Source: Streptomyces flavofungini (GTDB lineage Bacteria; Actinomycetota; Actinomycetes; Streptomycetales; Streptomycetaceae). Taken from it: 64,000 bases of DNA. The position numbers and the translations under genes are program-made. The notes under the pieces were generated by a model. It did not search any database and was not told where the DNA came from. It worked only from the letters and a program-made list of their open reading frames with translations. The stretch is taken from positions 4,166,501 through 4,230,500 of the forward strand of contig NZ_CP128846.1 in NCBI RefSeq assembly GCF_030388665.1, written 5' to 3'. Positions 10,153 to 40,299 of this stretch are shown here, piece by piece. Every line of letters begins with the position of its first letter. Position 1 is the stretch's first letter.

Positions 10153-10309
10153 ACCACGCCACTCGGCCCGGCCCGTGACGTCCCTCTACGCACCGCAGGG
10201 ACCACCCGCCCAGGAGTCAGTCACCTCTCGCCGCAAGGCCCCGAGCCTGAAACGGCCCGGTCCGCGCGGGCCGACCGCTCCGAGCCTCGGCCCCGAAGGG
10301 ACATGCCCC

Positions 10310-11212: not shown

Positions 11213-11361
11213 CCACAAGCACCCGCCGCCCTACAACCTTGCCGGAATCCCGCATCCCGTTCACCAGCACAGCCCCCGTCCAGATCGGCCTCCTCGATCG
11301 AGCGCGTCCGGGGCCAACCGGGGACGCAGGCCCTGGCCCAGCCCGCTGGCCGCAAAGCTGA
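11209..11361 (+). pseudogene. truncated ORF, possibly the start of a carboxymuconolactone-decarboxylase/AhpD-like gene
   Basis: It starts in an ATGA overlap with the SDR gene and reads 50 codons (TLPESRIPFTSTAPVQIG and onward) before a stop. The first 25 residues resemble the beginning of AhpD-like peroxidase proteins; the rest does not. It is probably a truncated fourth gene of the SDR group, cut where the next remnant begins. Confidence 0.3.
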
Positions 11362-11428
11362 ATCAGCAGCGCCCCACGAAGCCGAGTAAGGGGACTCTCG
11401 GGCGATTCATCAGACAGAACCTAGGGCG

Positions 11429-11671
11429 GTGCCGGGGCCCGCGCCACGGGTCGGGGTCCGCGAGCGCGTCCAGCTCGCGGCCCGGGGCGGCGCGGGCGCG
11501 GTGGCGGTCACCACGTCATCGCCGGAGCGGGGTGCGCGGCCCAGTTCACCGAAGGCGCGCGGCGAGCTGCGCGCGGTCGTGCACGAGGTGCTGCCCCTGG
11601 GCGAGGCGGCGGAGGCCCATCGGGGGATGGACAAGGGCCGGGTGTTCGGGAGGGTGGTGCTGGTGCCCTGA
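11429..11671 (+). pseudogene. C-terminal remnant of a zinc-type quinone oxidoreductase
   Basis: The last 35 codons (ELRAVVHEVLPLGEAAEAHR then GRVFGRVVLVP, stop) are the characteristic end of quinone-oxidoreductase-like NADPH dehydrogenases. Upstream the reading is degenerate and no catalytic or nucleotide-binding domain is present. It is a gene relic. Confidence 0.6.
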
Positions 11672-11672
11672 A

Positions 11673-11855
11673 CTAGAGGGAGGCGATGAACGCCTTCCAG
11701 GCGGGGGCGCCGAAGAGGACGGCGGGGCCGTGGGGGTTCTTGCTGTCGCGGACGGGGACGCCCGCCTGGCGGTGGGCGTCGTTCACTTCGAGGCAGTCGG
11801 CGCTGTCGGCAGCGCTGTAGCTCGACTTACGCCACTGGTCATCGGTGCTGTTCAT
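11673..11855 (-). CDS. DUF397 family small protein
   Basis: 60 residues with the family hallmarks WRKSSYS near the N-terminus, DCLEVND and VPVRDSKNPHGPAVLF. DUF397 proteins are encoded next to XRE regulators throughout Streptomyces. Here the start lies inside the 3' end of the XRE gene (17-bp overlap), so the two are translated together. They probably act as a regulatory pair. Confidence 0.85.
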   Translation of the reverse strand: MNSTDDQWRKSSYSAADSADCLEVNDAHRQAGVPVRDSKNPHGPAVLFGAPAWKAFIASL

Positions 11856-24626: not shown

Positions 24627-25062
24627 TCACCGGACGTAGGTGTTCTCCCGGTGCTGGATGAAGGTGGTCACGTGATCGCAGGTGAGGATCAGCTCCCAGG
24701 CGTCCAGGTCCTTCTTGCGTTCCTCGGCAGAGGGGAAGGTCTGAAAGAGTCGAGTGAGCTTCTCGATCTGCGCCGGCCCCATCGGTGGCAGCGGACAGCA
24801 TAGACAGCAGTGCCTCATGCGCGACCCGCCTGTGCCCCAGCGGCCGCTCTTGCAATCTGGGTGCAGTTCCCGGAACCGCTCTTCCATGACCTCGTAGTCG
24901 CGCTTCTCCTCTTCGGTGAGGTACATGAGCCCCGGCCAGTTCCCCAGGCCGTCGTACATGGGTTCGCCACATCCCCGACATGGCACCCCGGCCTTGTACT
25001 CGTCCCAGATGAGCCGTATACCTTCACGCTCCCATGCTTCCCGCCGCTCCGTGTCCCGGCGA
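24627..25062 (-). pseudogene. hypothetical gene truncated at its 5' end by the IS256 remnant
   Basis: The last ~140 codons are protein-like: EREGIRLIWDEYKAGVPCRG, CGEPMYDGLGNWPGLMYLTE, HCCLCCPLPPMGPAQIEKLT, then AWELILTCDHVTTF. CxxC pairs (CRGC, CLCC) suggest zinc binding. Upstream the frame becomes the antisense of a transposase, so the start was lost at about 25060. No family recognised. It is followed without a gap by the small CxxC gene. Confidence 0.5.
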
Positions 25063-25437
25063 TCCTCGCCGACGCCTGGGGCCGAAAGTATCCGGCGATC
25101 GTCAGGCTCTGGGAGAACGAGTGGGCGGAGTTCACCCCATTCCTGCGGTTCGACACCGAGATCCGCCGCATCGTCTGCACCACCAACGCGATCGAGTCCG
25201 TGAACGCCAGGATCCGGCGGGCGGTCAAGACCCGCGGACACTTCCAGAACGAGACCGCCGCCCTGAAGTGCGTCTACATGGCGATCATGTCGCTCGACCC
25301 CACGGGCAAGGCTCAGGCCCGCTGGATCATGCGCTGGAAGACCGCGCTGAACGCCTTCGACATCACCTTCGACGGCCGGCTCTCCGCGGCACGTCAGTAA
25401 CCTCAACCACCCGCGTTACACCGTTTGATTGACAGAA
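25063..25437 (+). mobile_element. IS256-family transposase C-terminal remnant
   Basis: The open frame to the stop at 25400 reads WGRKYPAIVRLWENEWAEFT, CTTNAIESVNARIRRAVKTR, GHFQNETAALKCVYMAIMSL and MRWKTALNAFDITFDGRLSA, the C-terminal third of IS256 (mutator) transposases including the catalytic Glu. The N-terminal two thirds are missing. A right end like TTTGATTGACAGAACCCC follows to about 25437. Confidence 0.8.
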
Positions 25438-25537: not shown

Positions 25538-27271
25538 TCAGAGAACATCCTTGATCTTGTTGAGGTATAGCTCAGCGAAGCCGCCCCATTGCTTCCTCAA
25601 CTGTCCGTACTGCTCGTTCGGGGTGTCGTGCATCGACTCAGCCTTCGCGTAGGCGACGAGCAGCAAAGTTATGGCTTCGATCGCTCGACGTGCCGTCGTC
25701 TGCAGCGACGGAGCATTCGCCATGGTGACGTCCTTGGAGAGAGCATTAAGCGGCTCGTACATCTCCCGGTAGAAGGCGTGTCGCTGATTGAGCCGGATGA
25801 TCGTCTGGTCCCCAAGGTGGGTCAGCTCGATGAGTTGGTCGCCAGGGAAGCTGACCGTCTCGATTACGAAGGGCATGTCCTTGATCTCTTGGACGTATGC
25901 TGCCTGCTCTTCCTCGGTCGAGCTGCGCCCCGCATCCTGAGCAAGGTCGACGTACTCCCTGTCCCGTTCGTCCGGAGTGGGTACGTCCTTGACTCGCGAC
26001 TTGGGCATCGTGCGATCGGCTTCCTTCACCGCCTTGGCCAGAGAGGCGTGCTCCCCTGACTTCACCGCTTCGGTCCGATCGTCATCGCCCCAGTGGCGCT
26101 GGAGTTCTTCGCGCGCCCGCGGGATGATCCGGCGAGCCAAATCACGGAGAGTCTTGCGGAGTTCATCTGCCGGCACTGCTCCGCGCTTGACGTTGCGAAC
26201 GCCCATGAGGCGGTCGAGCTCAGGGGTGAAGTAGACCTCGAAGCCGATGAACCTGTCCGGCGTAAGGATCCCGTCGGGGAAGAGACGGGCCACCGGCGTG
26301 TAACTGATCTCGCGATCGAGCCGCATGAAGCTGATTGCGCCCTCGTTCTCGGGCAACCGCAGCTTGCGTGCCAGGGCGTCTCCACCCTTGCCCTTGGCCC
26401 GCAGCACTTCGCGGGGTGCGAGCGTAATGACCACTCGAATCTTGTGATCGGTTCCCTGGACGTCCACTTCTTCGTTGAAGAAGACCTGCCCCTCGAAGTG
26501 GGTGTCCTTGTCGTCCCGCGGCGCGTTCTCGCGGCGAGCGATTTCATCCGTCAGGACCTTGTCCACCCAAGTTCCCTTGCGCAGAAACGTCGGGTCGTGG
26601 GGCACAAGATCGGTGTGGTCGACCGTGATCCTGATGCCGCCGCAGAGGAAGTCCCGGAAGATCCTGGAGAGTTCCTTGGTGATTTCTGTGCGGACGTGGT
26701 CCGGGGTGCTGCGGCCGTGTCCGTCGGACACCCGGTCGATCTTGGACCAAAGGACTAGCGTCCCGGTGCCTTCCGGGAAGTAGGGCACGAGATGGGCGGG
26801 CAGCGGCTCATCGTCGGGCGGGTTAATGCCGATCTTCTCCCCCCGCTTCTCTGCTTCGACGGCATCGTCCAGGTCGAACATCACATGCCTGATCGCCTCG
26901 CTACCCGCCACACGAGACCATGCTTCGATGCACGTGCCCACGCTGAGGCCGGCCAGCTTGGCGCCGACACCAAACTTGCCGATGGTCTTGTCGGACATGA
27001 ACCGCGTGGAGAAGCCAAGTTGCAGGTAGTGGTGCAGGGTCTTGTCATCCATGCCCTCCCCGTCGTCGAAAAAGGCGATCTGGCTGATCACCTTCTTGCG
27101 CCCCTTCATGACCTCTTCAGTCATGATCTGGACGTGGTTGGCGCGTGCCTCGACGCTGTTGTCGATCACTTCCCCGACTGCGGACGGGAAGTTATGGCCC
27201 GACTCACGGAGGCTGAGGAGTGCCTGGCCGGACAGGACGACGGGAATGGCGCCCTCGGCGATGTCGTTCAT
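25538..27271 (-). CDS. GHKL-family (MORC/MutL/Hsp90-like) ATPase
   Basis: 577 residues. The Bergerat ATP-binding fold is clear at the N-terminus: N-box GEVIDNSVEA (33-42), DDGEGM (69-74) and GKFGVGAKLA (98-107). The rest has a transducer-like region and charged helices, with a C-terminal region that could mediate dimerisation. GHKL ATPases of the MORC/MutL kind are known partners of nucleases in bacterial restriction-like operons; here the gene lies 14 bp after a GIY-YIG nuclease-like gene and beside a dnd locus. Inference: an ATP-driven clamp or switch that controls DNA recognition by the neighbouring nucleases. Third codon positions are less GC-rich than in the flanking chromosome. Confidence 0.8.
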   Translation of the reverse strand: MNDIAEGAIPVVLSGQALLSLRESGHNFPSAVGEVIDNSVEARANHVQIMTEEVMKGRKKVISQIAFFDDGEGMDDKTLHHYLQLGFSTRFMSDKTIGKFGVGAKLAGLSVGTCIEAWSRVAGSEAIRHVMFDLDDAVEAEKRGEKIGINPPDDEPLPAHLVPYFPEGTGTLVLWSKIDRVSDGHGRSTPDHVRTEITKELSRIFRDFLCGGIRITVDHTDLVPHDPTFLRKGTWVDKVLTDEIARRENAPRDDKDTHFEGQVFFNEEVDVQGTDHKIRVVITLAPREVLRAKGKGGDALARKLRLPENEGAISFMRLDREISYTPVARLFPDGILTPDRFIGFEVYFTPELDRLMGVRNVKRGAVPADELRKTLRDLARRIIPRAREELQRHWGDDDRTEAVKSGEHASLAKAVKEADRTMPKSRVKDVPTPDERDREYVDLAQDAGRSSTEEEQAAYVQEIKDMPFVIETVSFPGDQLIELTHLGDQTIIRLNQRHAFYREMYEPLNALSKDVTMANAPSLQTTARRAIEAITLLLVAYAKAESMHDTPNEQYGQLRKQWGGFAELYLNKIKDVL

Positions 27272-27285
27272 ACTGGTCTCCTGAT

Positions 27286-28255
27286 CTACAGAGTGTGCGG
27301 CGGAGGGAGAGCGCGGCGCAGCGCGCGCTCAATTTCGGTCTCGTGGCAGTACGGGCAGCGTCGGCCTGTTCCTGCGGGGCTGGCGGGATGGATCAAGTTG
27401 GCGATCGTGGCGCTCGTCGAGAGGTAGCGGTGGTACCAGTACGACTCGATGGCGTAGGCGTGGTGGCTGTCGCGTGTTGGCGCAGCTACGAAGTGAGTGG
27501 CGCGGCTACGGAGGGGGTGACGGATCAGACGTTGACGGAGACAGGTGTCGGAGCGGCCGACGTACAAGGGCGTGGCCTGTTGCTGTTCGTATTGCAGAAG
27601 TAGGTAAGCGCCGATGGTTCCCACGGGAATCTGCAGGTTGACGACGGCCCGCGTGAAACGGAGAGCCAAGCTTCCCTTGCTCTCGTACGGCTCACCAAGA
27701 CGAACACCTGATCCTTGGAGCCCCGTCACGGCGGGATACTGATGAGCGTTTTCGCGTGCTGGCGAAGTGCGTGTCGGGTCCGCTCCACGGTCGCCACAGA
27801 CCGCTGCGTCTGCTACTGCGGAGTCGGCGACAGTCATCATGTCGAGCCTTCCTTGGAGGCACGCGGGCCCATGAGATCCGAGTGTCCTCGCAAAGACTCT
27901 CAGCTCCTGCAGAGTCTCCGCTGCGACGGCACAAGCCTCGGGGGTGATATGAGTGATCACCTCGGCCACCGTCGCTCCGTCTGCGGACGTGGAGCACACA
28001 CGGCGGCGAGCTGCGTCAGCGAGCGGGCGGCAGGCGGCCTGCTCGCGAGCGTTGGCATGCGCGCGACGAATGGTCCGGCGTGCGTCCCTGATGACGTTCC
28101 GGCACGGATGGTCTGGGTCCTCCGCGGCGCGCTTCTCGCCGAGCGTGAGGTTGAGTGTCGAGCACATCGAGGTACTCGCCATCCCATGGACGCTTGCTGT
28201 ACTTCGCGTAGAGACGGCACATCGTTTCGATACGGACTTCGTTGAGCTGGAGCAT
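27286..28255 (-). CDS. GIY-YIG nuclease-like protein, apparent frameshift near the N-terminus
   Basis: The C-terminal 110 residues form a GIY-YIG-like domain: GAYLLLQYEQ, then PLYVGRSDTCLRQRLIRHPL with the expected Arg, a candidate catalytic Glu in AIESYWYHRYL, and a CPYCHETEIE metal-binding end. The middle (VAEVITHITPEACAVAAETL, ELRVFARTLG) has no recognised motif. ATG 28255 has an excellent GGGGAGGGG site and begins LQLNEVRIETMCRLYAKYSK, but that frame fails after EYLDVL. The following coding frame (NLTLGEKRAAEDPDHPCRNV) is shifted by one base near 28150-28165. Either a mutation, a base-calling error or recoding. Its stop is 14 bp from the ATPase gene, so the two form an operon. Confidence 0.65.
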
Positions 28256-28593
28256 GGAGCCCCTCCCCGGTGCCCGGCTGCTGTAAGCCGGACCCACTCA
28301 GTCTTGACCCACTCTCCCTTTGGCCGTCGTCGCCAGGTGGTCGACTTCGGCATGAGCAGGTTCTTGAACTGTAGAGCGCGCCACTGACAGTCATCTGCGG
28401 AACGCCCACATCTCCTATGGGACAGCTTTGAGGTCCTTCCCCTCACCGTCGTCCCTGCGGATTCCCATCTGTCCGCGCTGGTGCAGGTCACATGGCACGG
28501 AGGCGCGAGGAATGCTGGAAGAACGCCCTGTCGGTTTCTGTCACCAGGTAGCGTTGGGGGCGGCTTGGATCATGTCGCTCTGGAGGGCCCTGC
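28256..28593. other. divergent promoter region of the nuclease/ATPase module
   Basis: 338 bp separating the leftward GIY-YIG/ATPase operon from the rightward DGQHR/HNH operon. No gene seen. It does not contain the TTRACGTAC motif found between dndA and dndB, so the two loci are probably controlled separately. Confidence 0.45.
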
Positions 28594-30303
28594 GTGAACG
28601 CGAAGACGATCACATACACGTACCCAGCACACGTCACGCAGCAGACGGCATCTGGCAAGCCGCTGGTCTTCTTCGCGGCGCCGGCGACCGAGATCGACCG
28701 GTGGGTCGGCGTCCCGCAGCGCAGCCGACTCGATGACGAGGAAACGATCGGCTTCCAGCGGCAAGAGAACAAGACTCGCATCCGCGAGCTCTCGAGCTTC
28801 TACCATGACGAGCGCAACATCGTGCAGAACCCGCTCCTTGCGGCGCCGCAGACCAAGACGTTGGTGGAGTTCGAAGAGCTCGATGGGCATCCCCAGTTCG
28901 GCACGATCAAGATCGTGAGCCCTGACTTCAGCGACACCTCTCTGCTGGACCTCATGACTCAGGTTGTCGAGCAACTGGAGTCACGTGTTCCGGAACTCAA
29001 GGAAACGGACCTGGACCCAGATCGCTTGTCTTCGATCATGGACAGAGGGCGCAAAGAGCATGGGCTCGAAGTCCTCACGGAAGAGGACGAAGACGAAGAG
29101 GGAGCAGAGGAAAACGGGGGCAACGGCGATGACACGGACGCTGCCAGCGTGCTCCTCACAGACGAGACGCATCTGATCGACTTTTACACCGAGCTCAAAG
29201 GACGCATCAAGGTCCTTGGAGCCTTGGACCCAGATGCGAACCCCGACAGGATCCTCGGGTTCGACCGCAATGCCATGATCAGCTACCTCAAGCCGATCAT
29301 GCTTGTGGACGGCCAGCACCGCCTGAAGGGTGCCGTACTTGCAGCCGAGAGTCTCGCCGAAGGAAGCGAAGGGGAAGACTTCCTGCTGGACGCGGCCGAG
29401 GCTGGCAAAGACCCCGGGCAGGCGAAGGCCGAGTTCATCGGCCAGCACTCCCGACAGCTCCCGGTCTCGCTCCTCATGGACGACAGCCCGAGCGAGCACG
29501 TCTTTCAGTTCGTGGTGGTCAACCAGAAGGCGACCCCCATGGGCAAGGCGCTCCTGGGCACGATCGTTTCAACCAGCCTGAGCAAGGAAGAGCTCGACCC
29601 TGTTGCCCAGCGTCTCAAGGACGCCGGCATCAAGCTCGATGACTCGCAGGCCATTGCCTACCTCACCCGCGCTGATGAAAGTCCTTTCAAGAACTTCGTA
29701 CAGACAGGCATCACGGGTGCCACCGGGGATCAGAACACCCATCTCCAGTGGTCCGTACTCAAGGGACTCGTCAGTATCTTCCGTGAGCTGTCAGGTGGCA
29801 AGCTCTTCGCACAGAAGAATGACTGGGCAAAAGCCTGGGCAAAGTTCCACCTGGACGACAGTTCCTACGTGGCTGCCTTTGACACCCACAAGGAGAAGCT
29901 TGCCGAATGGGGTCGCCCCGACGGCCCCTGGCGCGAAGTCTTCATCAGGTTCTACTCAAACATCAGGGAGAAATTTGGCTCCGATGATCCCGAGGCGCTC
30001 AACGCATGGGGGACGACGCGAAGCAACCTGTTCAATAAGGTATCCCTGACGATCCTGGCCGCCGACTACTTCGAGTATCTTCGCACCCAGAAGAGGACGC
30101 TCAATAATCTGGCTGATGTCGACGCCACCATGAGTGAGTGGCTTGACGGAGTCAATCTCGCCTACTTCAACCGGAACTGGAAAGTCGAGAAGAAGGACAC
30201 CCCTCTGATTCGTCGCACTTGGGCCCGCCTGTGGAATGACTACCGCAGGAACCCTGACTACCTGCCCAAGGAAGGCGAGTTCAACCCCACTGCAGGGGCG
30301 TGA
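28594..30303 (+). CDS. DGQHR-domain protein (DndB-like), second copy in the locus
   Basis: 569 residues from GTG 28594 (TGGAGGG seven bases upstream). It carries the family signature LVDGQHRLKGA (DGQHR at 239-243) and later VVVNQKATPMGKALLGTIVS, as in DndB-type proteins, but is about 190 residues longer than the dndB product encoded nearby and shares little beyond the signature. An acidic insertion (161-181, Glu/Asp/Gly/Asn) splits the N-terminal part. DndB proteins bind DNA and control phosphorothioation. By inference this one is the DNA or modification-sensing subunit working with the HNH protein, to which it is translationally coupled (ATGA overlap). Confidence 0.8.
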   Translation: MNAKTITYTYPAHVTQQTASGKPLVFFAAPATEIDRWVGVPQRSRLDDEETIGFQRQENKTRIRELSSFYHDERNIVQNPLLAAPQTKTLVEFEELDGHPQFGTIKIVSPDFSDTSLLDLMTQVVEQLESRVPELKETDLDPDRLSSIMDRGRKEHGLEVLTEEDEDEEGAEENGGNGDDTDAASVLLTDETHLIDFYTELKGRIKVLGALDPDANPDRILGFDRNAMISYLKPIMLVDGQHRLKGAVLAAESLAEGSEGEDFLLDAAEAGKDPGQAKAEFIGQHSRQLPVSLLMDDSPSEHVFQFVVVNQKATPMGKALLGTIVSTSLSKEELDPVAQRLKDAGIKLDDSQAIAYLTRADESPFKNFVQTGITGATGDQNTHLQWSVLKGLVSIFRELSGGKLFAQKNDWAKAWAKFHLDDSSYVAAFDTHKEKLAEWGRPDGPWREVFIRFYSNIREKFGSDDPEALNAWGTTRSNLFNKVSLTILAADYFEYLRTQKRTLNNLADVDATMSEWLDGVNLAYFNRNWKVEKKDTPLIRRTWARLWNDYRRNPDYLPKEGEFNPTAGA

Positions 30304-31259
30304 TGCAGCCGCAGGAAGTCGGCGATTTCTTCGCCGAGATTAAGAAGGCGCTGGATAGTAACTGGTCAGATGAGGCTTTGAAGTCACTCTCGAAGTACAC
30401 AGTTCCAGAGGTTATCCCTGGAAACCATGGCTGGCTACTGCGCGGAGATCTCTCCACTGTATGGGCGCGGTGGTTCATCGAGAGTTTGGTGGACCTTGCT
30501 CCGTACGAACTGGACACGGAACTCAATATCGGACACCTTCATCGACCGATACTTTCCTTCTTCAATGCGACCAGCCCGCAGGTTCCCCTTGATGAGCGTA
30601 CGAAGTACGCCAAGGTCCTCACGAAATTTGCCTGGCAAATGATCCTTGCCCGAAGGGCACGGAAGCGAGTGGAAATCGGCATTTCGCTACGTGAAGACCT
30701 CTGGGCCTTGGGGCAACCGCAACCGCGCTGCTATCTATGCGGATTCCTTTTCGGGCCCCAGGCTCGGGATAAGTTTCTCCGCGAATCTAAAGCGGGGCCA
30801 CCAGTATCGAAACTCGTTGACTTCACGCGCCCTCGCGGCCAACTTCCCGCACAGCTATGTATTGAAGTCGACCACGTAATCCCCGTCGCCGAGGGTGGGC
30901 AAACGATAGTCGACAACTTGCGCCTAGCCTGCGGCTGGTGCAATTCGACAAAAAATCGATACACGAACATCTACGATGCCACCCCGTGGTCAGGTGGAAT
31001 ATTTCAGCACCCCGCGCTTGGACCCGTGACGCGACCCCAGCCACTCTGGGTATTGCGCACGGTCGCTACTCGCAGAAGGTGCGAGCACCCCGACGGGTGC
31101 TCGTCAAAAATTGAAGACAGCGAGCTGTTCGCGGGGCCTAGAAATCCTAAAGGAGCCCTGACGCCTGTGAATCTCGCCGTGTACTGTGAGACTCACGACC
31201 CCTGGCATCTAGATAGATGGATTGGACCGAAGCGCCTTGCCGCGTCTTCCACGGCGTAA
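30303..31259 (+). CDS. HNH endonuclease
   Basis: 318 residues from ATG 30303, overlapping the DGQHR stop (GTG 30300 is also possible). The C-terminal half is an HNH nuclease: zinc pair CYLC (143-146), catalytic VDHVIPVAEGG (His191), DNLRLACGWCNSTKNRY with the second Cys pair (C210, C213) and Asn. Two more Cys/His clusters follow (CEHPDGC and CETHD). The N-terminal 130 residues (WSDEALKSLSKYTVPEVIPG, WARWFIESLV, LTKFAWQMILARR) are helical and unrecognised; no sulfur-binding SBD or SRA domain is obvious. Several codons end in A/T, unlike the chromosome. Candidate nuclease of a restriction module. Confidence 0.85.
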   Translation: MQPQEVGDFFAEIKKALDSNWSDEALKSLSKYTVPEVIPGNHGWLLRGDLSTVWARWFIESLVDLAPYELDTELNIGHLHRPILSFFNATSPQVPLDERTKYAKVLTKFAWQMILARRARKRVEIGISLREDLWALGQPQPRCYLCGFLFGPQARDKFLRESKAGPPVSKLVDFTRPRGQLPAQLCIEVDHVIPVAEGGQTIVDNLRLACGWCNSTKNRYTNIYDATPWSGGIFQHPALGPVTRPQPLWVLRTVATRRRCEHPDGCSSKIEDSELFAGPRNPKGALTPVNLAVYCETHDPWHLDRWIGPKRLAASSTA

Positions 31260-31313: not shown

Positions 31314-31694
31314 TTACGAAGGATTGACTGTTCCGACCAGTCCTTCCAGAGATTGAAACTCCTTTTGACCGCCCAGGTGGCCAATTCCTCGGTGTAGATG
31401 AATCGTCAAAGTCTTGGCGACGTTTTCATCCGTCGGCTCTTCCCCGTCGGCAATACAGCGTTGCTTAAGGAGTGCAAGATAGACGTCGCCGTACTGGCCG
31501 GCGAAGGTCTTCCATGACATCTCCACAGTCGAATCGGTGACGATGTCCTTAACCAACGGGGTCGACGGGTCCTTGAGTGACATGACGAGGGCCCACCGAC
31601 ACAGAACATTCCAGTTGGGGATCCCGGTCGTGCGCTTCAGCCACGACAAACGATCTTTGGCTGGCTGCGAGAGACGGACGCTATCGAGCGACAT
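31314..31694 (-). CDS. dndE: DNA phosphorothioation protein DndE
   Basis: 126 residues, the usual DndE length. Typical start VRLSQPAKDRLSWLKRTTGI and NWNVLCRWALVMSL, helical throughout, ending in IHLHRGIGHLGGQKE. DndE binds nicked or covalently closed DNA and is required for sulfur incorporation into the backbone. Its start overlaps the end of dndD by 14 bp; it is last in the leftward dndBCDE operon. Confidence 0.93.
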   Translation of the reverse strand: MSLDSVRLSQPAKDRLSWLKRTTGIPNWNVLCRWALVMSLKDPSTPLVKDIVTDSTVEMSWKTFAGQYGDVYLALLKQRCIADGEEPTDENVAKTLTIHLHRGIGHLGGQKEFQSLEGLVGTVNPS

Positions 31695-33702
31695 GCAGGG
31701 CTCCTTCGTTCCACCAGTACCCCTCGACGACGTTGGTGGTGAAGGTCGTATCGTCGTGGACCAGCGTGTAGGTATGGGCTACCGACTTCTTCAGGCGGCC
31801 CAGCAGGTATTCGTCGATCTCCTCGTCAGTGGAGAGGAGAAGTACCTGGTCGCTCGCCTGCGGGAAGTATCGGTCCACAAGGTGCTCGCGATGGCGGCTG
31901 TCGAGGCGTCCGAGCGGCGTGTCGATCACGCTGGGAAGACGGTTTCCGGCGACTTTCATCAGCCCCCACAGAAGTGAGACGGCTAGGATCTGCCGCTCGC
32001 CAGCGCTGAGGCGCCCAGGGTCGATCGTGTCGCCTTGAGAGTCGGTCAGCGTGAGCCTGAAGTCGCCGGCGATGCGGAGGTCTTGGACGAGTCCCCGCTT
32101 TCGCATGAGGTCCTTGAAGCTCTGCAGTACAGCCACCTCAAGCCGACTGATATGCCGCTGCAGGAGTGCTTCACCAAAGCGCTCAAGAGTCCCGCGGGCC
32201 TTCTCCGAATACTTGATGATCCGCTCGACTTCTTCGGCCTTCACCTTCGTCCGGACGAACTCCTTGTGAGCACGTTCAAGGGCGGCTTCCACGTTGGCCC
32301 GACGCCGCTTGAGTTCGGTGGCCCGTTCCCTGCCACGGGCGACCGTGGCCTCCATGCGGGCAAGCTCTTTGAGCTGTGCTGCGCGCTTCTTCTGGAGGTC
32401 TTCCACCTTGCTCTGCTCCGGGACACCGGCCAGCTGGCGATCCAGTTGATCGAGTTCCTCAGCAGCAGCGGCAACAAGTGCCAGAAGCTCGCTGGCCCGA
32501 GCCTCGTCTCGTACGAGAACCTCGTCAAGCACCGTCAGCTGCGCCAGAGCATCGTGGGGAAGCGCGAAGTCCACCTTCAAGACAGAAGACTTGGAGCGCT
32601 TGACTCGGTCTTCCTCCAGCCTCTTCGTGATCGTGTCCCTTGCATCCTCGGGCAAGAGATCGAGCAGCCACTGATCTCGCTTCTCCAAGACGTCAAGGAC
32701 CTGGCCGGCTTCAGCCGCCGACTGCTCACGCCGGGCCTGCTTGCGGACGTCCTTCAGGTGCGTACGCATCATGAGCAGTGGTAGCGGGCCTGCTGCGACC
32801 TGGGCTAGGGACAAACGAAGCTCGGCAAGGCGCTCGTCAGCCCGCTTACGCTCTTGCTCGATCTCGAGACGGCGCTCGAAGAGGCCGCCTCCTTCGTTCT
32901 GGAACTCGCGCTCCAAGCTCTCAAGTTTGTGGCGAGCATTCTTCAGCAGAGCATCTTGGTGCTTCGAATCCTGCTCCGCCACGTCCAGCTGTTCCTGAAC
33001 AGACTCGCGTTCATGCTCCTGTGCACGAATGTTGTCCATCAGGTGCTGTTCCCCATCGGACAGCTTCTGGCGACGTTGGAGTGCGAGCAGGTCAGTGCGG
33101 AGCTGTTGCACGGTGCTTACTCCGAGCAAGGAATGCACCGCTGACTCGATGACCGAGGCTGCACGCTCAGGGTCGGCGAGGGACTCGATCTTCTCGCCGT
33201 CGAAGAAGGACAGCGATGCCACTTCAAGCGGAAGCAGGTCTTCGACGTAGTCTGCCCAGCCTTCGCTGAGTAGCCTGCTGTACTTCAGTTCTGGCTGAGT
33301 ACGGCGCCCAGGCTTGGTGACGTAGTTCTCATCAACGGAGACGTTGAGGAATTCCTTCAGGGTCTTGCCGTTGACGTGCCAGCTTCGGGCGACTCTGTAG
33401 TAGTGCTCTTTACCGTCGACAGTGACGGTAAACTCCAAAGTGACTGAGGAACCACGTGCCGGGTCGTGCTGTCGGTTGATGCTCTCGCGAAGGTAGGTCT
33501 CGTATGCCTTGCTGCCTCGTCCACTGCATCGGGCACGCGGACCGTACAGGGCGAGCTGGATGGCATCGAGCAGAGTCGTCTTGCCGCAACCGTTGAGTCC
33601 ACCGATCAGGATGATCGGCTTGCTCTTCTTCACGGTGAGGTCGAGTGACTGCTTACCTCGATAAGCGCCGAACTCTTCAAGGGTGATGTTACGCAGGAGC
33701 AT
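31681..33702 (-). CDS. dndD: DNA phosphorothioation ATPase DndD
   Basis: 673 residues, an SMC/Rad50-like ATPase. Walker A GGLNGCGKTT (34-43), a long coiled-coil centre (residues about 210-520), ABC signature LSAGERQILAVSLLWG, Walker B PSVIDTPLGRLD and a terminal LLLSTDEEI. DndD hydrolyses ATP and is thought to alter DNA structure or nick it during phosphorothioation. It overlaps dndC upstream and dndE downstream. Confidence 0.95.
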   Translation of the reverse strand: MLLRNITLEEFGAYRGKQSLDLTVKKSKPIILIGGLNGCGKTTLLDAIQLALYGPRARCSGRGSKAYETYLRESINRQHDPARGSSVTLEFTVTVDGKEHYYRVARSWHVNGKTLKEFLNVSVDENYVTKPGRRTQPELKYSRLLSEGWADYVEDLLPLEVASLSFFDGEKIESLADPERAASVIESAVHSLLGVSTVQQLRTDLLALQRRQKLSDGEQHLMDNIRAQEHERESVQEQLDVAEQDSKHQDALLKNARHKLESLEREFQNEGGGLFERRLEIEQERKRADERLAELRLSLAQVAAGPLPLLMMRTHLKDVRKQARREQSAAEAGQVLDVLEKRDQWLLDLLPEDARDTITKRLEEDRVKRSKSSVLKVDFALPHDALAQLTVLDEVLVRDEARASELLALVAAAAEELDQLDRQLAGVPEQSKVEDLQKKRAAQLKELARMEATVARGRERATELKRRRANVEAALERAHKEFVRTKVKAEEVERIIKYSEKARGTLERFGEALLQRHISRLEVAVLQSFKDLMRKRGLVQDLRIAGDFRLTLTDSQGDTIDPGRLSAGERQILAVSLLWGLMKVAGNRLPSVIDTPLGRLDSRHREHLVDRYFPQASDQVLLLSTDEEIDEYLLGRLKKSVAHTYTLVHDDTTFTTNVVEGYWWNEGALHVAR

Positions 33703-35287
33703 CAGTGTCGGTCACTTCGTCGAAGGTCGGGTTGGTCTCTACCTCTTCGCGCCACTTCTTCTTGCGCTGCGCGAACGCGACGGCATCGTCACGATCCTCA
33801 TAGAAGCCCTTCTGCACCGCGCCTTCGAGTGCCTGGAAGAGTCCTGAGCGTCGCGTCATGGTGCGGTACTTGCGCTCGACGGAGAGCAACTCGCGCACCA
33901 TGTCGTAATGCAACTCGTCGCCGTCACAGACCTCTTTGAGGAGCTCCATCTCATCGGCACCCATGACGAGCTGCTCATCGAGCGGACCACCGGGGAACTC
34001 CTCGCCAGTAGCCTTCTTATAGATCGTCGGTACAGAGTCCTCAACCTCGTGCTTGTCGAAGACCCAGATGCGCCGGATCTCCGTGAGCTCTTCGATGCTG
34101 ATGAGCTCAATGTTGCGGACGTGCTCGGGCGCGTGGGCCCTGATCCAGGTTTGGGCAGTCAGGAGCTCCCTGAGCCACTCCTCCCGGTACTTCTGAAGGT
34201 AGGGGCCATGGACGACGCTGAATTCCCCATCGCTGCCACGAGTGAACAGGTTGACTTGTCCGTTCATCCGGCGGAAGTCACGAGCTTGCTTGTCTGGCCG
34301 AGGGTGCGGGATCTTCTTGCCGGGCTGGTAGTCGGGGTCCAGCTTGTCCTCAACGAAACCAAAGGGCGAATCGAGTTTGTCCCTCAAGTTCAGCAGAGGG
34401 ATCATCCACTCCTTCTCTTCGTCATTTTGGATCATTGCCGTCATTGACTTGTCCTGCTCGACCAGCGTGCACGTCCAGCAGCCGAAGCGGCTTGAACCAC
34501 AAGACGGAGTAGTGGAGTCGACCACCAGCGGGCATTCCCCGTCTTCAGAGGCACCCTGATACATGCTGAGGAGGTCCTGATTGTTGTAGCCCCATGGGTT
34601 GGGCTTCTGCATCAGGTACTCCCACACGTCATCGTTGGTCCAGTCCTCAACGGGGCTGTAGACGAGTGAGTTAGGGAGGTTTGCGTTCGGCGAGAGTCGG
34701 TCGCGGACACGGCGCTTCTCGTGCTTCTCCATCGCGCGGGCACGGGCCTGGCTCTCAGTCTTGCGAATACCGAGGACCATGATGGCTTCGCCGTGAGCGG
34801 CTACGACACTTCGGATGAACGAGTTGGAAGGTTTGATCTTCAACCGCTCGGTGCACCAACGGAACTTGGGACGCGGTGCAGGGTATCCGCGGCCGATGAG
34901 GTTGACCCAGAAGGTGTCCTTGATCTCTGGAGTCAGGCGATGCGGCTCGACAGGCAACCCCTGCTCGGCAGCAGCCTTCTCCATGGTTTCGAGCGACGCA
35001 GTAACCCAAGCCGCCACTACCGGGTTCTCAACCAGGGTGTCTGTGCTGATGACATGAACCGGCTTGATGAGTTTGTCGGCTGGCAGTTCTTTCAGCGCCG
35101 TCCAGACCAGCTGAAGGACTGCGGTGGAGTCCTTGCCACCGCTGTACCCGATCACCCAAGGAACTTCATCCGCGGTGTAGAGCTCGCGCACCTCGTCAGT
35201 CAGTTCGGCGACGACGTCGTCGAGCAGCCGACCGTCAAACGGCAGCCGTCGGACGGAGGGCAGGCCAAGGGGAAGGGGGGTATTCAT
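33689..35287 (-). CDS. dndC: DNA phosphorothioation protein DndC (PAPS-reductase-like, Fe-S)
   Basis: 532 residues. PP-loop VIGYSGGKDSTAVLQL (SGGKDS at 49-54), FRWCTERLKI, and the Cys cluster SCGSSRFGCWTC of the iron-sulfur site. DndC activates the DNA phosphate with ATP and passes on sulfur delivered by the DndA cysteine desulfurase. It overlaps dndB upstream by four bases and dndD downstream by 14, consistent with one transcript. Confidence 0.95.
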   Translation of the reverse strand: MNTPLPLGLPSVRRLPFDGRLLDDVVAELTDEVRELYTADEVPWVIGYSGGKDSTAVLQLVWTALKELPADKLIKPVHVISTDTLVENPVVAAWVTASLETMEKAAAEQGLPVEPHRLTPEIKDTFWVNLIGRGYPAPRPKFRWCTERLKIKPSNSFIRSVVAAHGEAIMVLGIRKTESQARARAMEKHEKRRVRDRLSPNANLPNSLVYSPVEDWTNDDVWEYLMQKPNPWGYNNQDLLSMYQGASEDGECPLVVDSTTPSCGSSRFGCWTCTLVEQDKSMTAMIQNDEEKEWMIPLLNLRDKLDSPFGFVEDKLDPDYQPGKKIPHPRPDKQARDFRRMNGQVNLFTRGSDGEFSVVHGPYLQKYREEWLRELLTAQTWIRAHAPEHVRNIELISIEELTEIRRIWVFDKHEVEDSVPTIYKKATGEEFPGGPLDEQLVMGADEMELLKEVCDGDELHYDMVRELLSVERKYRTMTRRSGLFQALEGAVQKGFYEDRDDAVAFAQRKKKWREEVETNPTFDEVTDTDAPA

Positions 35288-36423
35288 GCATCGCCTCGCA
35301 GGTATGCGTCTTCCACGCGCTGCTCCTCGGGGCTAAGCCCGAGACCGAGGTGGTTGCGCAGGTAGTTCACGGTCAGGGTCACGTTCTGGTGGCTCTTGGA
35401 CACACGGCCGCCGACGATGGCACGTCCCTCCCAGTCGGTATTCGCCCGCGCCCAGTCCACCTGCTCAAGTGGGGCGAGCCGCTTCTGCCACTTGGCCGGC
35501 GAGGTGGATTCACGCAGGAGGGAGTTTCCGATTCGCCCGAGGGCATGAAGGGCGATGCCGTGACTATGGATGAAGTCGCGCCGCATCTCGGCGGAGGTGA
35601 GAGCACGGGTGCGGACCATCTCCCACTCAGGGAGGGCCTTGTCGATCGTCTCCCAGTACAGCTGAGCCAGCTCCGTAGCAGCGTCTTGCTTGAGGTCAAG
35701 TCCTTGGAGGAGCGCCTGCGTTCCGTAGTACAGGGCGCTCAAGGTGAACATCATCCGGGAACGGGCCGAGAGATTGCTTTTCTCCATCTCGACGTAGCCC
35801 TTGAAGATCTTCGCCCTTCCCGTCATCTCCCGCACCACCTGGGAGGAAGGGTCCCGGTGGTCGTAGAGAACACCGATGGAGCGCGCCGGACGGACAGCAT
35901 GCCGGTTGAGGTCGGCGAACATCTGCTGGGATCGATCCAACCCGGCGTCGTGGAAGAAGACGACAGCAATCGTCTCCTCGCCCAGGTCTGGGTTCTCCTT
36001 GAGGGCGAGCTCGATGGCTGCCCGTCGGTGCTGCCCATCATTGATCAAGAACCTGGCGTCCATGGGGATGCGGAGCTGCCCTGTGCGGAAGCCTGTGCCA
36101 TCCGCGCTGTGGCTGTCGAAGTCCATTTCGCCATCGACCGAAGCAGTCAGAGCACTGAAGACGTAATCAGCCGGATTGTCCAGAATATACTTAGTAAGGG
36201 CGGGGAGTCTCCCCTTGTTGAGGATGCGTTGCGCCCGCAGCTCCGGAGACAGCTCATCTTCGTCAAAGATAAAGATCTTGGGGATCAGCCGCAGCGGGCA
36301 CATAGAGACGTAGAACTCTCGACCTGCCTGAATGCCGCGGATCGCAGGGAAGGTGTACTCGAACCCCGTCGAAGTGCGGGGGGCGACGACTCGGGTCGCA
36401 GGTGCCACAGCTTCGCTCTCCAC
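35284..36423 (-). CDS. dndB: DNA phosphorothioation regulator DndB
   Basis: 379 residues, canonical DndB size, with DGQHR at 129-133 (LINDGQHRRAAI) and FADLNRHAVRPARSIGVLYD downstream. DndB is not needed for modification but represses the dnd operon and limits modification frequency. It is first in the leftward operon and faces dndA across 263 bp that hold a repeated TTRACGTAC motif, a plausible binding site. Confidence 0.94.
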   Translation of the reverse strand: MESEAVAPATRVVAPRTSTGFEYTFPAIRGIQAGREFYVSMCPLRLIPKIFIFDEDELSPELRAQRILNKGRLPALTKYILDNPADYVFSALTASVDGEMDFDSHSADGTGFRTGQLRIPMDARFLINDGQHRRAAIELALKENPDLGEETIAVVFFHDAGLDRSQQMFADLNRHAVRPARSIGVLYDHRDPSSQVVREMTGRAKIFKGYVEMEKSNLSARSRMMFTLSALYYGTQALLQGLDLKQDAATELAQLYWETIDKALPEWEMVRTRALTSAEMRRDFIHSHGIALHALGRIGNSLLRESTSPAKWQKRLAPLEQVDWARANTDWEGRAIVGGRVSKSHQNVTLTVNYLRNHLGLGLSPEEQRVEDAYLRGDA

Positions 36424-36431
36424 TTCGCAAC

Positions 36432-36658
36432 TTTAACGTACTGGCGTCAGCTGGCAGCCATCATTTGACGTACCAACGCTCCCCCTCAGCGCCCAGGTCA
36501 CGATGGAGCTAGCGCAGGGGCGAAGCGTGAATCGGTGGGCGCCTCGCCGTGACGCCACCCGGCGGGATGACGTGCGGCACCTCTTGTGTTGACAGAGACG
36601 GCGGTGCCCTGCAGCGCGTTAACGCGTCGCACGTGTACGTTAACCGATTGACGTACAC
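36432..36658. promoter_or_regulatory. repeated TT(A/G)ACGTAC motif between dndB and dndA
   Basis: Two direct copies close to the dndB start (TTTAACGTAC 36432-36441; TTTGACGTAC 36464-36473, 32 bp apart, three helical turns) and two facing copies nearer dndA (GTACGTTAA 36635-36643; TTGACGTAC 36648-36656). The latter pair forms a perfect 8-bp inverted repeat GTGTACGT / ACGTACAC at 36633-36658. The layout suits one regulator acting on both divergent promoters. Confidence 0.6.
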
Positions 36659-36686
36659 GATGGCACGAGAAACGTCCTAGAAGTGG

Positions 36687-37838
36687 GTGGCGGTTGTGGT
36701 GGCGTATCTGGATGTGGCAGCAACGACTCGGGTGGACCCCCGCGTGGCGGATGTCGTGCGCCACTGGATGACTGAAGAGTTCGGCAACGCCGGCAGCCGC
36801 ACCCATGAGTACGGAGCGCGCGCCAAGAAGGCGGTGCAAGAAGCTCGGGCATACCTAGCGGGCTCGGTAGGCGCCAAGACGGAGGAGGTCATCTTCACCT
36901 CCGGGGCAACCGAGTCGAACAACATCGCCCTTCTGGGCATGGCTCCCTACGGCGAGAAGAGTGAGCGACGCCACATCATCACGTCCGCAATCGAGCACAA
37001 GGCAGTGCTTGAGCCCCTTCAGCACCTGCAGAGCCGGGGCTTCGAGGTCGACTTCTTGGAGCCGGGAGCATCTGGCCGAATCGAGACAGAGGCGGTACTG
37101 GCGAGGTTGCGCCCAGACACGCTCTTGGTCTCCCTCATGCACGTGAACAACGAGACTGGCGTCATCCAGCCCGTCGCGGAGCTCGCCGAGAAGCTCTGCG
37201 AGACGCCGACATTCCTGCATGTCGACGCCGCACAGGGCTACGGCAAGGTCCCGCAGGACCTCAAGGCCCCCATCGACATGATCAGCATCAGCGGCCACAA
37301 GATCGGCGCCCCGAAGGGCGTGGGGGCGCTGGTGACGCGACGACGCGGGTGGGACAAGGTTCCACTGGAGCCGATCATGTTCGGAGGCGGCCAGGAGCGG
37401 AAGCTCCGTCCGGGGACGCTGCCTGTGCCGCTGATCATGGGTCTTTATGAAGCAGCAAGGATTTTCAACGAGGGGCAGGCTCGTTGGAAGCGGGACGCCC
37501 TTGCGATCCGAGAGCGAATGCTCACCGCCCTTGGCAAGACGCGCTTCCGGATTAATGGGGACGCTGATCGCACCGTGCCCCACATTCTGAACGTGACGTT
37601 CGATGGCCTCAATGCGGAGGCGCTGATCGTGCGCCTTAAGAGTCAGGTAGCTGTGGCGACCGGCTCGGCGTGCACCAGCGCGGCGTACACGCCCAGTCAC
37701 GTTCTGACAGCGATGGGATTGCCGGAGGAAGTTGCAACCAATGGGCTGCGATTTTCGTGGTTCCCGAGTCAGATTGCAGACTTCGACCCGGAGGACGTGG
37801 CAGCGACGATCGCTCGGATGCAGCCTGACGCAGTCTGA
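36687..37838 (+). CDS. dndA: cysteine desulfurase DndA
   Basis: 383 residues from GTG 36687; GTG 36699 (reading AYLDVAATTRVD) is equally likely and matches the usual family start. PLP-enzyme motifs: TSGATESNN (71-79), AIEHKAVLEP, HVNNETG, HVDAAQ, SISGHKIGAPKG with PLP Lys205 and ATGSACTS with catalytic Cys329. It mobilises sulfur from cysteine for DndC. It is transcribed divergently from dndBCDE, the arrangement known in Streptomyces lividans. It ends head-to-head with the methyltransferase gene. Confidence 0.95.
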   Translation: MAVVVAYLDVAATTRVDPRVADVVRHWMTEEFGNAGSRTHEYGARAKKAVQEARAYLAGSVGAKTEEVIFTSGATESNNIALLGMAPYGEKSERRHIITSAIEHKAVLEPLQHLQSRGFEVDFLEPGASGRIETEAVLARLRPDTLLVSLMHVNNETGVIQPVAELAEKLCETPTFLHVDAAQGYGKVPQDLKAPIDMISISGHKIGAPKGVGALVTRRRGWDKVPLEPIMFGGGQERKLRPGTLPVPLIMGLYEAARIFNEGQARWKRDALAIRERMLTALGKTRFRINGDADRTVPHILNVTFDGLNAEALIVRLKSQVAVATGSACTSAAYTPSHVLTAMGLPEEVATNGLRFSWFPSQIADFDPEDVAATIARMQPDAV

Positions 37839-37853: not shown

Positions 37854-39293
37854 TCAGCCTTCCGGACGCCGGACGAGCCGGTGGCCGCGCAGTTCGCGGC
37901 CACAGCGGATGAGCTCGGCTTCCCAGCCCTTCTCGGTGCCGATGAGGTGTGGGTGCTCGTACAGCCCCGCCTTCACCTCGGAGCTGGTGAGCCGGTGGTA
38001 ACGGTCCACATCGGGGTCGTCCGGTGCCAGGAACTCATGCTTGCGGTGGAGAAGCGGGCGGTTCTCCGAGTTCGCGTAGGACAGGTGTGACGTCTCGAGG
38101 GACTTCAGATCCACTAGGTAGGAGGACAAGATCCGCGGGTGTGGGTCCTTGTCGAACTCGGGATAGTCGAGCCAACTGACGGCCCGGCCTTGATGCTTCA
38201 GCTTCGCCAGGGTCCATTCCTGTGGGCGGCCGGCGGCGATGGACGCGCAGTGCTCGTACAGGCGCAGGATCGTGGGCATACGGTCCAGGGCGCGCCGATG
38301 GACGTACAGCGCGGTCGGTGTCATCTTGCCGATGGCTGAGGCGTTCATGGCGCCGCGCACGTAGGCGTCGTCGCGGAGCTTGAGGAGGAGCCGGTCGGAT
38401 CGCTGGCAGGCTTCCTTGTACGACGTGAAGAAGGATCGGACGTCGAGCTGCACGCCGAGGGGCAAGCTGGCGAAGGGGCCTCGGCCGTTGAACAGCTCCA
38501 CCGCCAGGTAGAGCAGAGTGTTCAAGGTGGAGCGCTTTCCGCCCTCAGCAACCTTGCCGGGATCTGCGGTGTCGTTCACCAGTCGCTTCACCTCACCGGG
38601 CTTGAGATGCGCGAGGAGTTCGGCCGTCGCCCGGGGCATCTCGTCAATGCGGGGCGGACGTCCCCGCCGCTCCACGTAGTCGACGAGAGCCGTGATCGCG
38701 GACGCGGTGTCCTCGGAGGTCAGCCACTCGGCATCTGGGGTGATCCGATGGGCGAGATAGCCGAGTCGGGCTGTGTCGTCCTTGAAGACGTAGACGATGC
38801 CGGGGGCCGCCGAGACAACCCGGGCACCGGTGACTTCCTCGACGTAGGAGCGCAACTCACTGGCACCGAAGAGATGTTGGAAGGTCCGGCGGCTGGTGAG
38901 CAGGCCGTCACCGAATGCCTCGCCGCGGACTTTGGACTTCTCCCAGGTGAGACGTGCGGAGACGATCAAAACGGTGCTGGCGAGTTCCCAGGCGCGCTTC
39001 AGGGTTTCACAGCGTTCAGCCGAGTCCTCGATCACGTTCAAGACGTAAGTGAGGAGGACAACCGAGGAGGGCTCAGCGCGCGTCTCCGAGCGGTAGTAGG
39101 GGTCCCAGCCGACGACCTTGCAGTCCAGTCTTTCCAAGGCCCGTACGTCGTCGCCGCGTCCACAGCCGTAGTCGAGGATCGTTCTGTCAGGCGTGAGCTG
39201 TCTGTCGGCGAGAGCTTGGCGGGCGGGGACGGAGAGGGCGACACGGCCGATGGCAGTGCGGCGGCGATCACTGTTCCAGGTCTGTTGCTGCAT
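37854..39293 (-). CDS. DNA phosphorothioation-associated methyltransferase-like protein
   Basis: About 479 residues from ATG 39293 (ATG 39308 also in frame). N-terminal SAM-binding motif TILDYGCGRGDDVRALERLD, then VVLLTYVLNVIED, a separate middle region and a C-terminal domain with YVHRRALDRMPTILRLYEHC and YPEFDKDPHPRI. This matches the putative methyltransferase that co-occurs with dnd clusters; its role is not established, so modification of bases near phosphorothioates or regulation are both possible. It is convergent with dndA, with a 15-bp gap. Confidence 0.85.
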   Translation of the reverse strand: MQQQTWNSDRRRTAIGRVALSVPARQALADRQLTPDRTILDYGCGRGDDVRALERLDCKVVGWDPYYRSETRAEPSSVVLLTYVLNVIEDSAERCETLKRAWELASTVLIVSARLTWEKSKVRGEAFGDGLLTSRRTFQHLFGASELRSYVEEVTGARVVSAAPGIVYVFKDDTARLGYLAHRITPDAEWLTSEDTASAITALVDYVERRGRPPRIDEMPRATAELLAHLKPGEVKRLVNDTADPGKVAEGGKRSTLNTLLYLAVELFNGRGPFASLPLGVQLDVRSFFTSYKEACQRSDRLLLKLRDDAYVRGAMNASAIGKMTPTALYVHRRALDRMPTILRLYEHCASIAAGRPQEWTLAKLKHQGRAVSWLDYPEFDKDPHPRILSSYLVDLKSLETSHLSYANSENRPLLHRKHEFLAPDDPDVDRYHRLTSSEVKAGLYEHPHLIGTEKGWEAELIRCGRELRGHRLVRRPEG

Positions 39294-39449
39294 TGAGCCT
39301 CGCTGCATCTCACGAACCTGGAGGCAGCGTAGTTGCGGGCAGCACTGGGCGGGACCTCTTCGAGGAATTGCTTGATCCCAAGGTGCTCGGGGCCGAGGCT
39401 TGGGCTTCGTAGCACTCAGCCCCGAGCAGCGTTCCGTGGACGAGGGTGA

Positions 39450-39683
39450 TCAATCCCTGCTCGTGGGCGTGGAGAGCGAGGCGGTGGCTTCGTTGCCCTG
39501 CGCAGGGACTGAGGGTGATCCGTCGAGTCGGTACTGCTCAGACTGCACCAGGTACATGCGGCAGAAGTCCCCAGGGCCCTTGGCGTCGAGGTGCATCAGG
39601 TCGTCGAAGGATCCGTGCTCCGTCACGCGGCCTTGGTCGAGGACGTAGATCTCGTCGGCATGCCGGACGCTGTGGAGGCGGCT
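39450..39683 (-). pseudogene. ABC-transporter ATPase C-terminal remnant
   Basis: Minus-strand reading SRLHSVRHADEIYVLDQGRV and TEHGSFDDLMHL is the end of an exporter-type ABC ATPase (H-loop neighbourhood and D-loop tail), then a tail to a TGA at 39450. There is no Walker A, signature or start. Its 5' side is fused to the HsdM fragment at about 39683. Confidence 0.75.
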
Positions 39684-40188
39684 GGATGATGTGCCGAGGC
39701 GTACGGAACTGGCCGTTCTGCCCTGCCGTAGCGATCTTGCCGAGCCTGTACTCGTACAGGTCGCCCTTGATGTCCTTGTCGCCCATGTCGATGCCGTTGA
39801 TCATGTCAACAGCCTTGGCAAGCAGGTTCGACGTAGTAATGGTGAAGCGAGCGTCCTTCATGTGGTGCGCGTAGGTGGACTCCTCACCACCCAGCGCGCG
39901 AAGCCAGGGAAAGACGCCGTCACGCACCTGTGTGAGCATGTTCTCGGGAGACTCGTTGATGAACACCGACCAGCGCAGAACCTGGGTGACGTCCGCGTAA
40001 GTCGGGTTCTCGACGGGACGCCCGGTGCGGTTGGCCTTGTTCTCTTTGGCCTGTTCCAAGATGTCCAGGCGCCGAATGAACATCAGGTAGGTGATCTGCT
40101 CGATGACCTCCAATGGGTTGGAGATCCGGCCAGACCAGAAGGCGTCCCAGAGTCGGTCGATCTTGCTCTTCAGCTCACCTGTAATCAC
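39684..40188 (-). pseudogene. type I restriction methylase HsdM, N-terminal remnant
   Basis: GTG 40188 begins ITGELKSKIDRLWDAFWSGR and then PLEVIEQITYLMFIRRLDIL, continuing to YRLGKIATAGQNGQFRTPRH, the N-terminal helical domain of HsdM up to the edge of the methylase core. The catalytic domain is missing: the sequence switches to the ABC-transporter tail. No HsdR or HsdS is present in the window. Confidence 0.85.
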
Positions 40189-40299
40189 GCAAGCAGGCCA
40201 GCGTGTCGCACTGACACACGCGGCCGTGTCGGCCGGGGAACAGCGGGCGCTGTTGGGCGAGCGGCGTGTCACGCGGAGCCTCTGACCAGGCACCCCACG

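Follow-up and report, generated by a model that had tools for sequence, protein, structure and literature searches.

What makes phosphorothioate (PT) modification of DNA, in which sulfur replaces an oxygen of the backbone, useful to bacteria that carry dnd genes without the restriction genes dndFGH? According to passages of two surveys that applied different criteria, DndFGH is found in 806 of 3416 nuclease-bearing dnd taxa (PMC10853773) and in 340 of 568 dndBCD genomes (PMC11662687), so that what makes the mark useful in the many remaining carriers is open. The question is raised by a 64,000-nucleotide stretch (hereafter the window) of the 9.36-Mb genome of Streptomyces flavofungini, in which a complete dnd set is adjoined by two gene pairs: a DGQHR protein with an HNH nuclease (module 1) and a GHKL ATPase with a GIY-YIG nuclease (module 2). 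We propose that both modules probably defend the cell in a way not recognised before and leave sulfur-marked DNA unharmed.

Two nuclease modules adjoin a complete dnd set

The genes dndE-D-C-B on the minus strand and dndA on the plus strand occupy positions 31314-37838, and all pass their NCBIfam cut-offs (Table 1). The two pairs next to dndE are mutually divergent, DGQHR-HNH lying on the plus strand and GIY-YIG-GHKL on the minus strand; the intergenic region between them was searched for an inverted repeat, and none was found. Catalytic or motif residues are kept in all four proteins.

An earlier note on this DNA had seen no DndF, DndG or DndH gene, and had held that its idea of a new restriction arm would be refuted by a complete DndFGH/SspE-type set just outside the window combined with no phenotype of the module. 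We found no match to DptFGH within the window or in the 20 kb beyond each end, and these flanks gave no match to any dnd, CxC, Dpt or module profile. Across the genome, DptH had no match, with both control genomes positive (2/2); DptF had none in a search without a positive control, and the DptG search covered the window and its flanks. A true CxC helicase-nuclease (dnd_restrict_1) was also not found in this genome: the best match reaches 40.8 bits, against approximately 540-607 bits in true carriers, and corresponds to background helicases. Modules 1 and 2 are the only nucleases that we found beside dnd in this genome, where SspE- and ScoMcrA-type enzymes encoded elsewhere fell outside the search.

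The DGQHR-HNH pair occurs in dnd carriers of several phyla

A profile of the DGQHR protein yielded 39 loci from GTDB contigs, 39-79% identical. Locus retrieval required short exact peptide patterns, and relatives remoter than this range could lack dnd. Judged by taxon names, the loci come from Actinobacteria, Cyanobacteria, Proteobacteria, one Acidobacterium and others, and in every one (39/39) the HNH gene lies directly downstream of DGQHR on the same strand. At 34 of the 39 loci, at least one of dndB, dndC and dndE is present in the retrieved sequence, which reaches at most 10 kb to each side; dndD was left out of this count because its profile picks up CxC ATPases as well. At the remaining five loci (L009, L020, L021, L027 and L029), dndC and dndD are both found above cut-off elsewhere in the genome, on the same contig at about 13 kb in L021 and 17 kb in L009 and, to judge from contig numbers, on other contigs in L020, L027 and L029. 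Because L020 and L029 lie near contig ends, L027 is the sole clearly unlinked exception.

Among 295 genomes of the genus, DGQHR is found in five, and each of these belongs to the 11 that have several dnd genes in one locus (p = 2.6e-8; 6.9e-7 with the own genome removed). This and the following co-occurrence samples are small, with only a few candidates scored per genome, and their p-values ignore relatedness, independent origins being uncounted on a tree. The dndC gene occurs in 15 genomes of the genus; in four of these, the 20 kb retrieved contains no further dnd gene, and both modules are missing. These four (L095-L098, in genomes G256, G103, G147 and G025) carry a dndC-family gene above cut-off, and several dndC genes similar to theirs are located on Streptomyces plasmids.

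Described or proposed dnd restriction genes can accompany the pair: DptF, DptG and DptH genes are present at three DGQHR loci (L024, L036 and L037), and the CxC helicase-nuclease family at 11 of 40 loci when the window is counted with the 39. Two DGQHR loci came from viral contigs, one of them a dnd island of the S. regalis type; for GHKL, the viral contigs gave a single weak match. A mirror-tree analysis covering DGQHR, HNH and the dnd proteins was dropped as uninformative in the form run, since the expected control pair, dndC-dndD, reached only r = 0.17.

Several loci show further genes of interest. An Mrr-type restriction endonuclease is encoded just upstream of DGQHR-HNH in L006 (8467-9729), L008 (8458-9825), L087 (13505-14836) and L088 (15911-17278); the Mrr_cat domain was shown for the L008 copy, with which the others are grouped by family. 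A second, different DGQHR/DndB-like family of approximately 530-544 aa where complete (L019 4421-6025, L020 12712-13854, L031 12764-14362 and L124 11885-13519) lies near DGQHR-HNH in cyanobacteria and near HTH-GIY-GHKL, a form of module 2 with a helix-turn-helix (HTH) gene, in G813. In L037 (Vibrio metoecus), the DGQHR gene (10001-11678) falls into two open reading frames (ORFs) and the dndA, DptG- and DptH-type genes are split too; this locus is decaying or poorly assembled.

The proteins of module 1

The DGQHR protein scores 49.1 bits against TIGR03187, below the cut-off of 58.85, and the match is limited to the first part of the domain (22-108), with the DGQHR motif lying outside it, at residue 239. 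The family motifs QR, DGQHR and FxxxN are nonetheless present: R56, DGQHR and N310 are conserved in 61 of 61 sequences, Q55 in 60 and F306 in 59. The HNH gene starts within the end of the DGQHR gene. Its product, modelled by AF2 with a pLDDT of 93.1 and helical in its N-terminal half, can be assigned to the HNH (His-Me finger) nucleases from a PF01844 match above cut-off and from the catalytic residues H192 and N215, which are kept, together with K218, in 39 of 39 rows (E189 in 37, N206 in 38). Two metal-type cysteines, at window-protein positions 147 and 214, are lost jointly in five of the 39 rows (L026, L033, L034, L036 and L037).

No match to DUF262 (PF03235) was obtained at E ≤ 1 in either protein, under HMMER filters that discard most weak matches, and DUF1524 (PF07510) was detected in neither. 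Foldseek gave no significant match for the DGQHR or the HNH model. DndI and SspE are absent from the structural-neighbour VIA lists of the module 1 models, an absence that does not exclude kinship, and structure 4H9D is among the top neighbours. No DGQHR-HNH fusion occurs among 240 listed proteins, 120 of which are DGQHR relatives (the best 120 of 788).

The GHKL ATPase is found in dnd genomes, also far from dnd

In the family sample of 297 genomes, 11 genomes contain 12 GHKL places (E ≤ 1e-80); three further genomes of the genus sample (>400 bits) add one each, which makes 15 places in 14 genomes. All 14 genomes carry dnd. The fetched stretch contains dnd at 11 of the 15 places; a GIY-YIG gene adjoins at 11, an HTH gene is present at seven (one being the broken window copy) and DGQHR-HNH at four. 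The places without local dnd belong to G702 (two), G757 and G889, and dndC and dndD are found elsewhere in all three genomes. One G702 place lies approximately 20 kb from dnd and the second on another contig. In G757 and G889, GHKL and dnd are separated by approximately 2.4 Mb and 0.94 Mb on the same chromosome contig, so that linkage alone is insufficient to account for the association.

In the family sample, dndD is present in 16 genomes, in one of them as a partial match, and these 16 include every one of the 11 genomes with GHKL (p = 1.3e-16; 2.5e-15 without the own genome); three of the 16 have DGQHR. Within the genus sample, all four genomes with full-length GHKL likewise belong to the 11 that have several dnd genes in one locus (p = 1.1e-6). 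As an internal control, 19 genomes of this sample gave only partial GHKL-domain matches, to other families, and none of them (0/19) is on the list of dndC carriers. Mutual exclusion of GHKL and CxC was not significant among the 15 genomes of the family whose dndD match is intact (p = 0.23). The GHKL family is rare, since a draw of 396 genomes from the phylum gave it, at E ≤ 1e-80, in the own genome alone.

The proteins of module 2

A profile of the GHKL protein matches MORC3, MORC4 and MORC2 chains (best 7.5e-8), and its motifs E34/N38, D69-D70-G71-x-G73 and G98-K99-x-G101-x-G103 are invariant in 20 of 20 aligned sequences. MzaB of the MZA systems is the top NCBIfam match, at 60.6 bits, far below the cut-off of 850. 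In the GIY-YIG nuclease, the residues G-x-Y, Y-x-GRSD, R, E and N are kept in 16 of 16 distinct sequences; the relative in L008 passes the PF01541 cut-off (22.9 against 22.6 bits), and that in L002 does not.

A mechanically called ORF of 401 aa (27286-28491), to which no family was assigned, is an artefact: relatives have an HTH-like gene of approximately 178 aa and an overlapping GIY-YIG gene of approximately 150 aa. Matches to these HTH homologues run through three successive frames in the window, which points to two frameshifts within this gene, where mutation and assembly error are indistinguishable; the gene is intact in other genomes. What the earlier note had taken as a frameshift in the GIY-YIG gene is located in the neighbouring gene, and the nuclease gene itself is intact with its catalytic residues.

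Table 1. Genes of the dnd region and of the two modules, with flanking genes, in window coordinates
Feature	Position	Strand	Evidence
Mutator/IS256-type transposase, C-terminal remnant	24810-25397	+	PF00872
GHKL (MORC/paraMORC-like) ATPase, 577 aa, module 2	25538..27271	-	PF13589 66.4 bits (cut-off 25)
GIY-YIG (URI) nuclease, 147 aa, intact, module 2	27286..27729	-	ortholog of a separate ~150-aa gene in relatives
HTH-like gene, broken, module 2	~27735-28256	-	matches L001/L002/L003/L102/L086 homologues in three successive frames
DGQHR/putative ParB-fold protein (DndB-related), 569 aa, module 1	28594..30303	+	TIGR03187 49.1 bits and family motifs
HNH nuclease, 319 aa, module 1	30300..31259	+	PF01844 37.7 bits (cut-off 21.4)
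dndE	31314..31694	-	TIGR03184 above cut-off
dndD	31681..33702	-	TIGR03185 above cut-off
dndC	33689..35287	-	TIGR03183 above cut-off
dndB	35284..36423	-	TIGR03233 above cut-off
dndA	36687..37838	+	TIGR03235 above cut-off
dnd-associated putative methyltransferase	37854..39308	-	TIGR04096 530 bits (cut-off 150)
ORF with HsdM N-terminal domain	39538-40290	-	HsdM N-terminal domain and weak beginning of N6 methylase domain

The HsdM-type ORF next to the dnd genes is a probable remnant of a type I methylase, to judge from its domains.

A proposed restriction role linked to the PT mark

A restriction role linked to dnd is the best reading of these data, because both halves are confined to dnd carriers in our samples, also where unlinked, and because neither DptH nor a true CxC enzyme was found in the own genome. 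A nuclease that relies on a modification for its safety or its activity is expected to be confined to genomes bearing that modification, even without linkage. Type IV enzymes that attack PT-DNA are, by contrast, expected to avoid dnd genomes. We give a probability of roughly one half, a shade above even, to two independent nuclease modules that use the mark of DndA-E to discriminate self from foreign DNA, module 1 being comparable to DndI, SspE and GmrSD. A bolder version, whose chances we place a little under even, sees in them two unrecognised PT-dependent restriction arms. One would be an effector of two chains, a ParB-NTPase and an HNH nuclease, spread over several phyla; the other, built on a MORC-type ATPase and in most cases GIY-YIG, would need dnd even at distances of up to megabases.

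DndA-E would lay the PT mark, from which both modules would read self. In module 1, the DGQHR subunit, with its putative ParB fold, may bind a nucleoside triphosphate and sense PT or its absence; in a putative complex with its partner, it would gate the HNH nickase, leading to a cut in PT-free DNA. In module 2, a MORC/MutL-like, ATP-driven DNA clamp formed by the GHKL protein would license the small GIY-YIG nuclease on unprotected DNA, and the small HTH protein, where present, may regulate the module.

Module 1 fits a two-chain version of the DndI design. As described in passages of PMC11662687, DndI (IscS-DndBCDE-DndI of Salmonella Cerro 87) is a single-chain ParB-HNH protein that combines a ParB-like domain bearing a DGQ(Q/H)R motif with an HNH nuclease, defends together with DndBCDE, and harms cells that lack PT. 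DndI carries DUF262 and DUF1524 in its one polypeptide, whereas module 1 consists of two genes in which neither domain was detected, with a PF01844-type HNH nuclease that has cysteine pairs and a DGQHR motif outside the profile-matching stretch. The QR, DGQxR and FxxxN motifs and an E/D-H-N-N nuclease site are also those given for GmrSD in passages of PMC4619093, where GmrS and GmrD may be two proteins and where 4H9D, near the top of the neighbours of module 1, served as the template for modelling GmrD. SspE and GmrSD belong to other Pfam families than module 1 and occur in another setting: module 1 accompanies dndA-E, whereas SspE is tied to sspABCD and GmrSD acts alone as a type IV system. 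DndFGH (DptFGH) and CxC/Pbe (dnd_restrict_1, an HKD nuclease with an SF2 helicase) are described or proposed restriction partners of dnd, but they are other protein families, and both can adjoin the present modules in relatives.

GHKL ATPases beside nucleases are known from restriction contexts, namely the prokaryotic MORC/paraMORC systems (PMC2292703), and in VcSduA a GHKL domain is proposed to control a fused nuclease (PMC12137116). Word searches of the two main texts found neither GIY-YIG nor dnd, whereas the usual partner in module 2 is a separate small GIY-YIG gene and the carriers are dnd genomes. URI and HNH nucleases near dnd have been noted in PMC10853773, and the GIY-YIG protein of the window may be such a URI; the HNH nuclease discussed there differs from ours in being fused to winged-helix-turn-helix and SRA domains. 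The terms GHKL, MORC and DGQHR do not occur in the main text of that paper, whose supplementary data, outside the search, may hold such genes. Passages of PMC12704722 report fusions of ParB with HNH and a DndB-like protein that binds ATP/GTP, but no DGQHR-HNH pair. In the literature searched (listings and opened passages, without supplements), neither pair was found described as a dnd partner.

Observations against this reading and alternative explanations

Some observations weigh against a PT-dependent restriction role. A plasmid of Nocardiopsis flavescens carries HTH-GIY-GHKL, with 72% identity in the GHKL protein, and no gene of the dnd set lies closer than 14 kb; the 60 plasmid records that match dndC at E ≤ 1e-30 do not include this plasmid, and the chromosome lay outside the search. 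Remote GHKL relatives (31-33% identical) occur on three Vibrionaceae plasmids with no dndD or dndE in the stretch. Homologues total 788 for DGQHR and 494 for GHKL (120 of each listed), and genome placement covers a minority of them. On the Vibrionaceae plasmids (L103 11992-16264, L104 11974-15865 and L105 9959-14693), the GHKL relative lies near a PAPS-reductase-like protein remotely like DndC, and GIY-YIG was not found in these stretches; the two genes are possibly another sulfur-type modification module.

Confinement to dnd carriers would also be predicted if the nucleases were backup suicide modules, silent while dnd works and attacking DNA indiscriminately once a phage blocks the Dnd machinery or exceeds its capacity. 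Such a role has been suggested for free-standing nucleases at dnd borders as a whole, URI/GIY-YIG among them (passages of PMC10853773), and induced expression would fit the HTH gene, broken in one case, beside GHKL at seven of 15 places. The nucleases are, however, paired with motif-conserved NTPase-type proteins and the pair is kept across phyla, which suggests discrimination without being decisive, and we consider the suicide role unlikely. It is quite unlikely that module 1 is an accessory of modification, with DGQHR, a distant relative of DndB, serving as an additional DndB to adjust the amount of PT or the expression of dnd, and HNH nicking for modification or repair. DndB itself is already encoded at 28 of the 40 loci, and modification does not need the pair, since it is present in only five of the 11 dnd-locus genomes of the genus.

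The earlier note had joined all four genes into a single set, and one can picture an integrated machine in which DGQHR reads PT, GHKL acts as the switch and both nucleases cut. The genes and their dnd neighbours are real, the two operons are divergent neighbours, and the recurrence elsewhere for which the note had called was found, DGQHR, HNH, GHKL and GIY-YIG lying together near dnd in L001-L004, L006 and L008; DGQHR and full-length GHKL also occur together in three of the 11 dnd-locus genomes of the genus. The single set did not survive the wider comparison, as 33 of 39 DGQHR-HNH stretches lack GHKL, 11 of 15 GHKL places lack DGQHR-HNH and four lack a GIY-YIG neighbour, and the association of DGQHR with GHKL within the 11 genomes is not significant (p = 0.24). 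Such a machine therefore appears very improbable to us. The transposase remnant adjoining GHKL could mean that the modules are passive passengers of a shared mobile island, but co-occurrence persists where they are unlinked (G757, G889 and L027) and across phyla, and other GHKL families in the same sample show no co-occurrence with dnd; we attach next to no weight to this explanation.

Implications

If the reading of two PT-dependent restriction modules is correct, the two arms would help explain restriction by dnd loci that lack DndFGH. As to how PT modification benefits such carriers, the DGQHR-HNH pair and the GHKL module, which accompanies dnd even in trans, are concrete and testable candidates; through them, PT sensing would come to include a ParB-HNH system divided between two chains as well as MORC-like ATPases.

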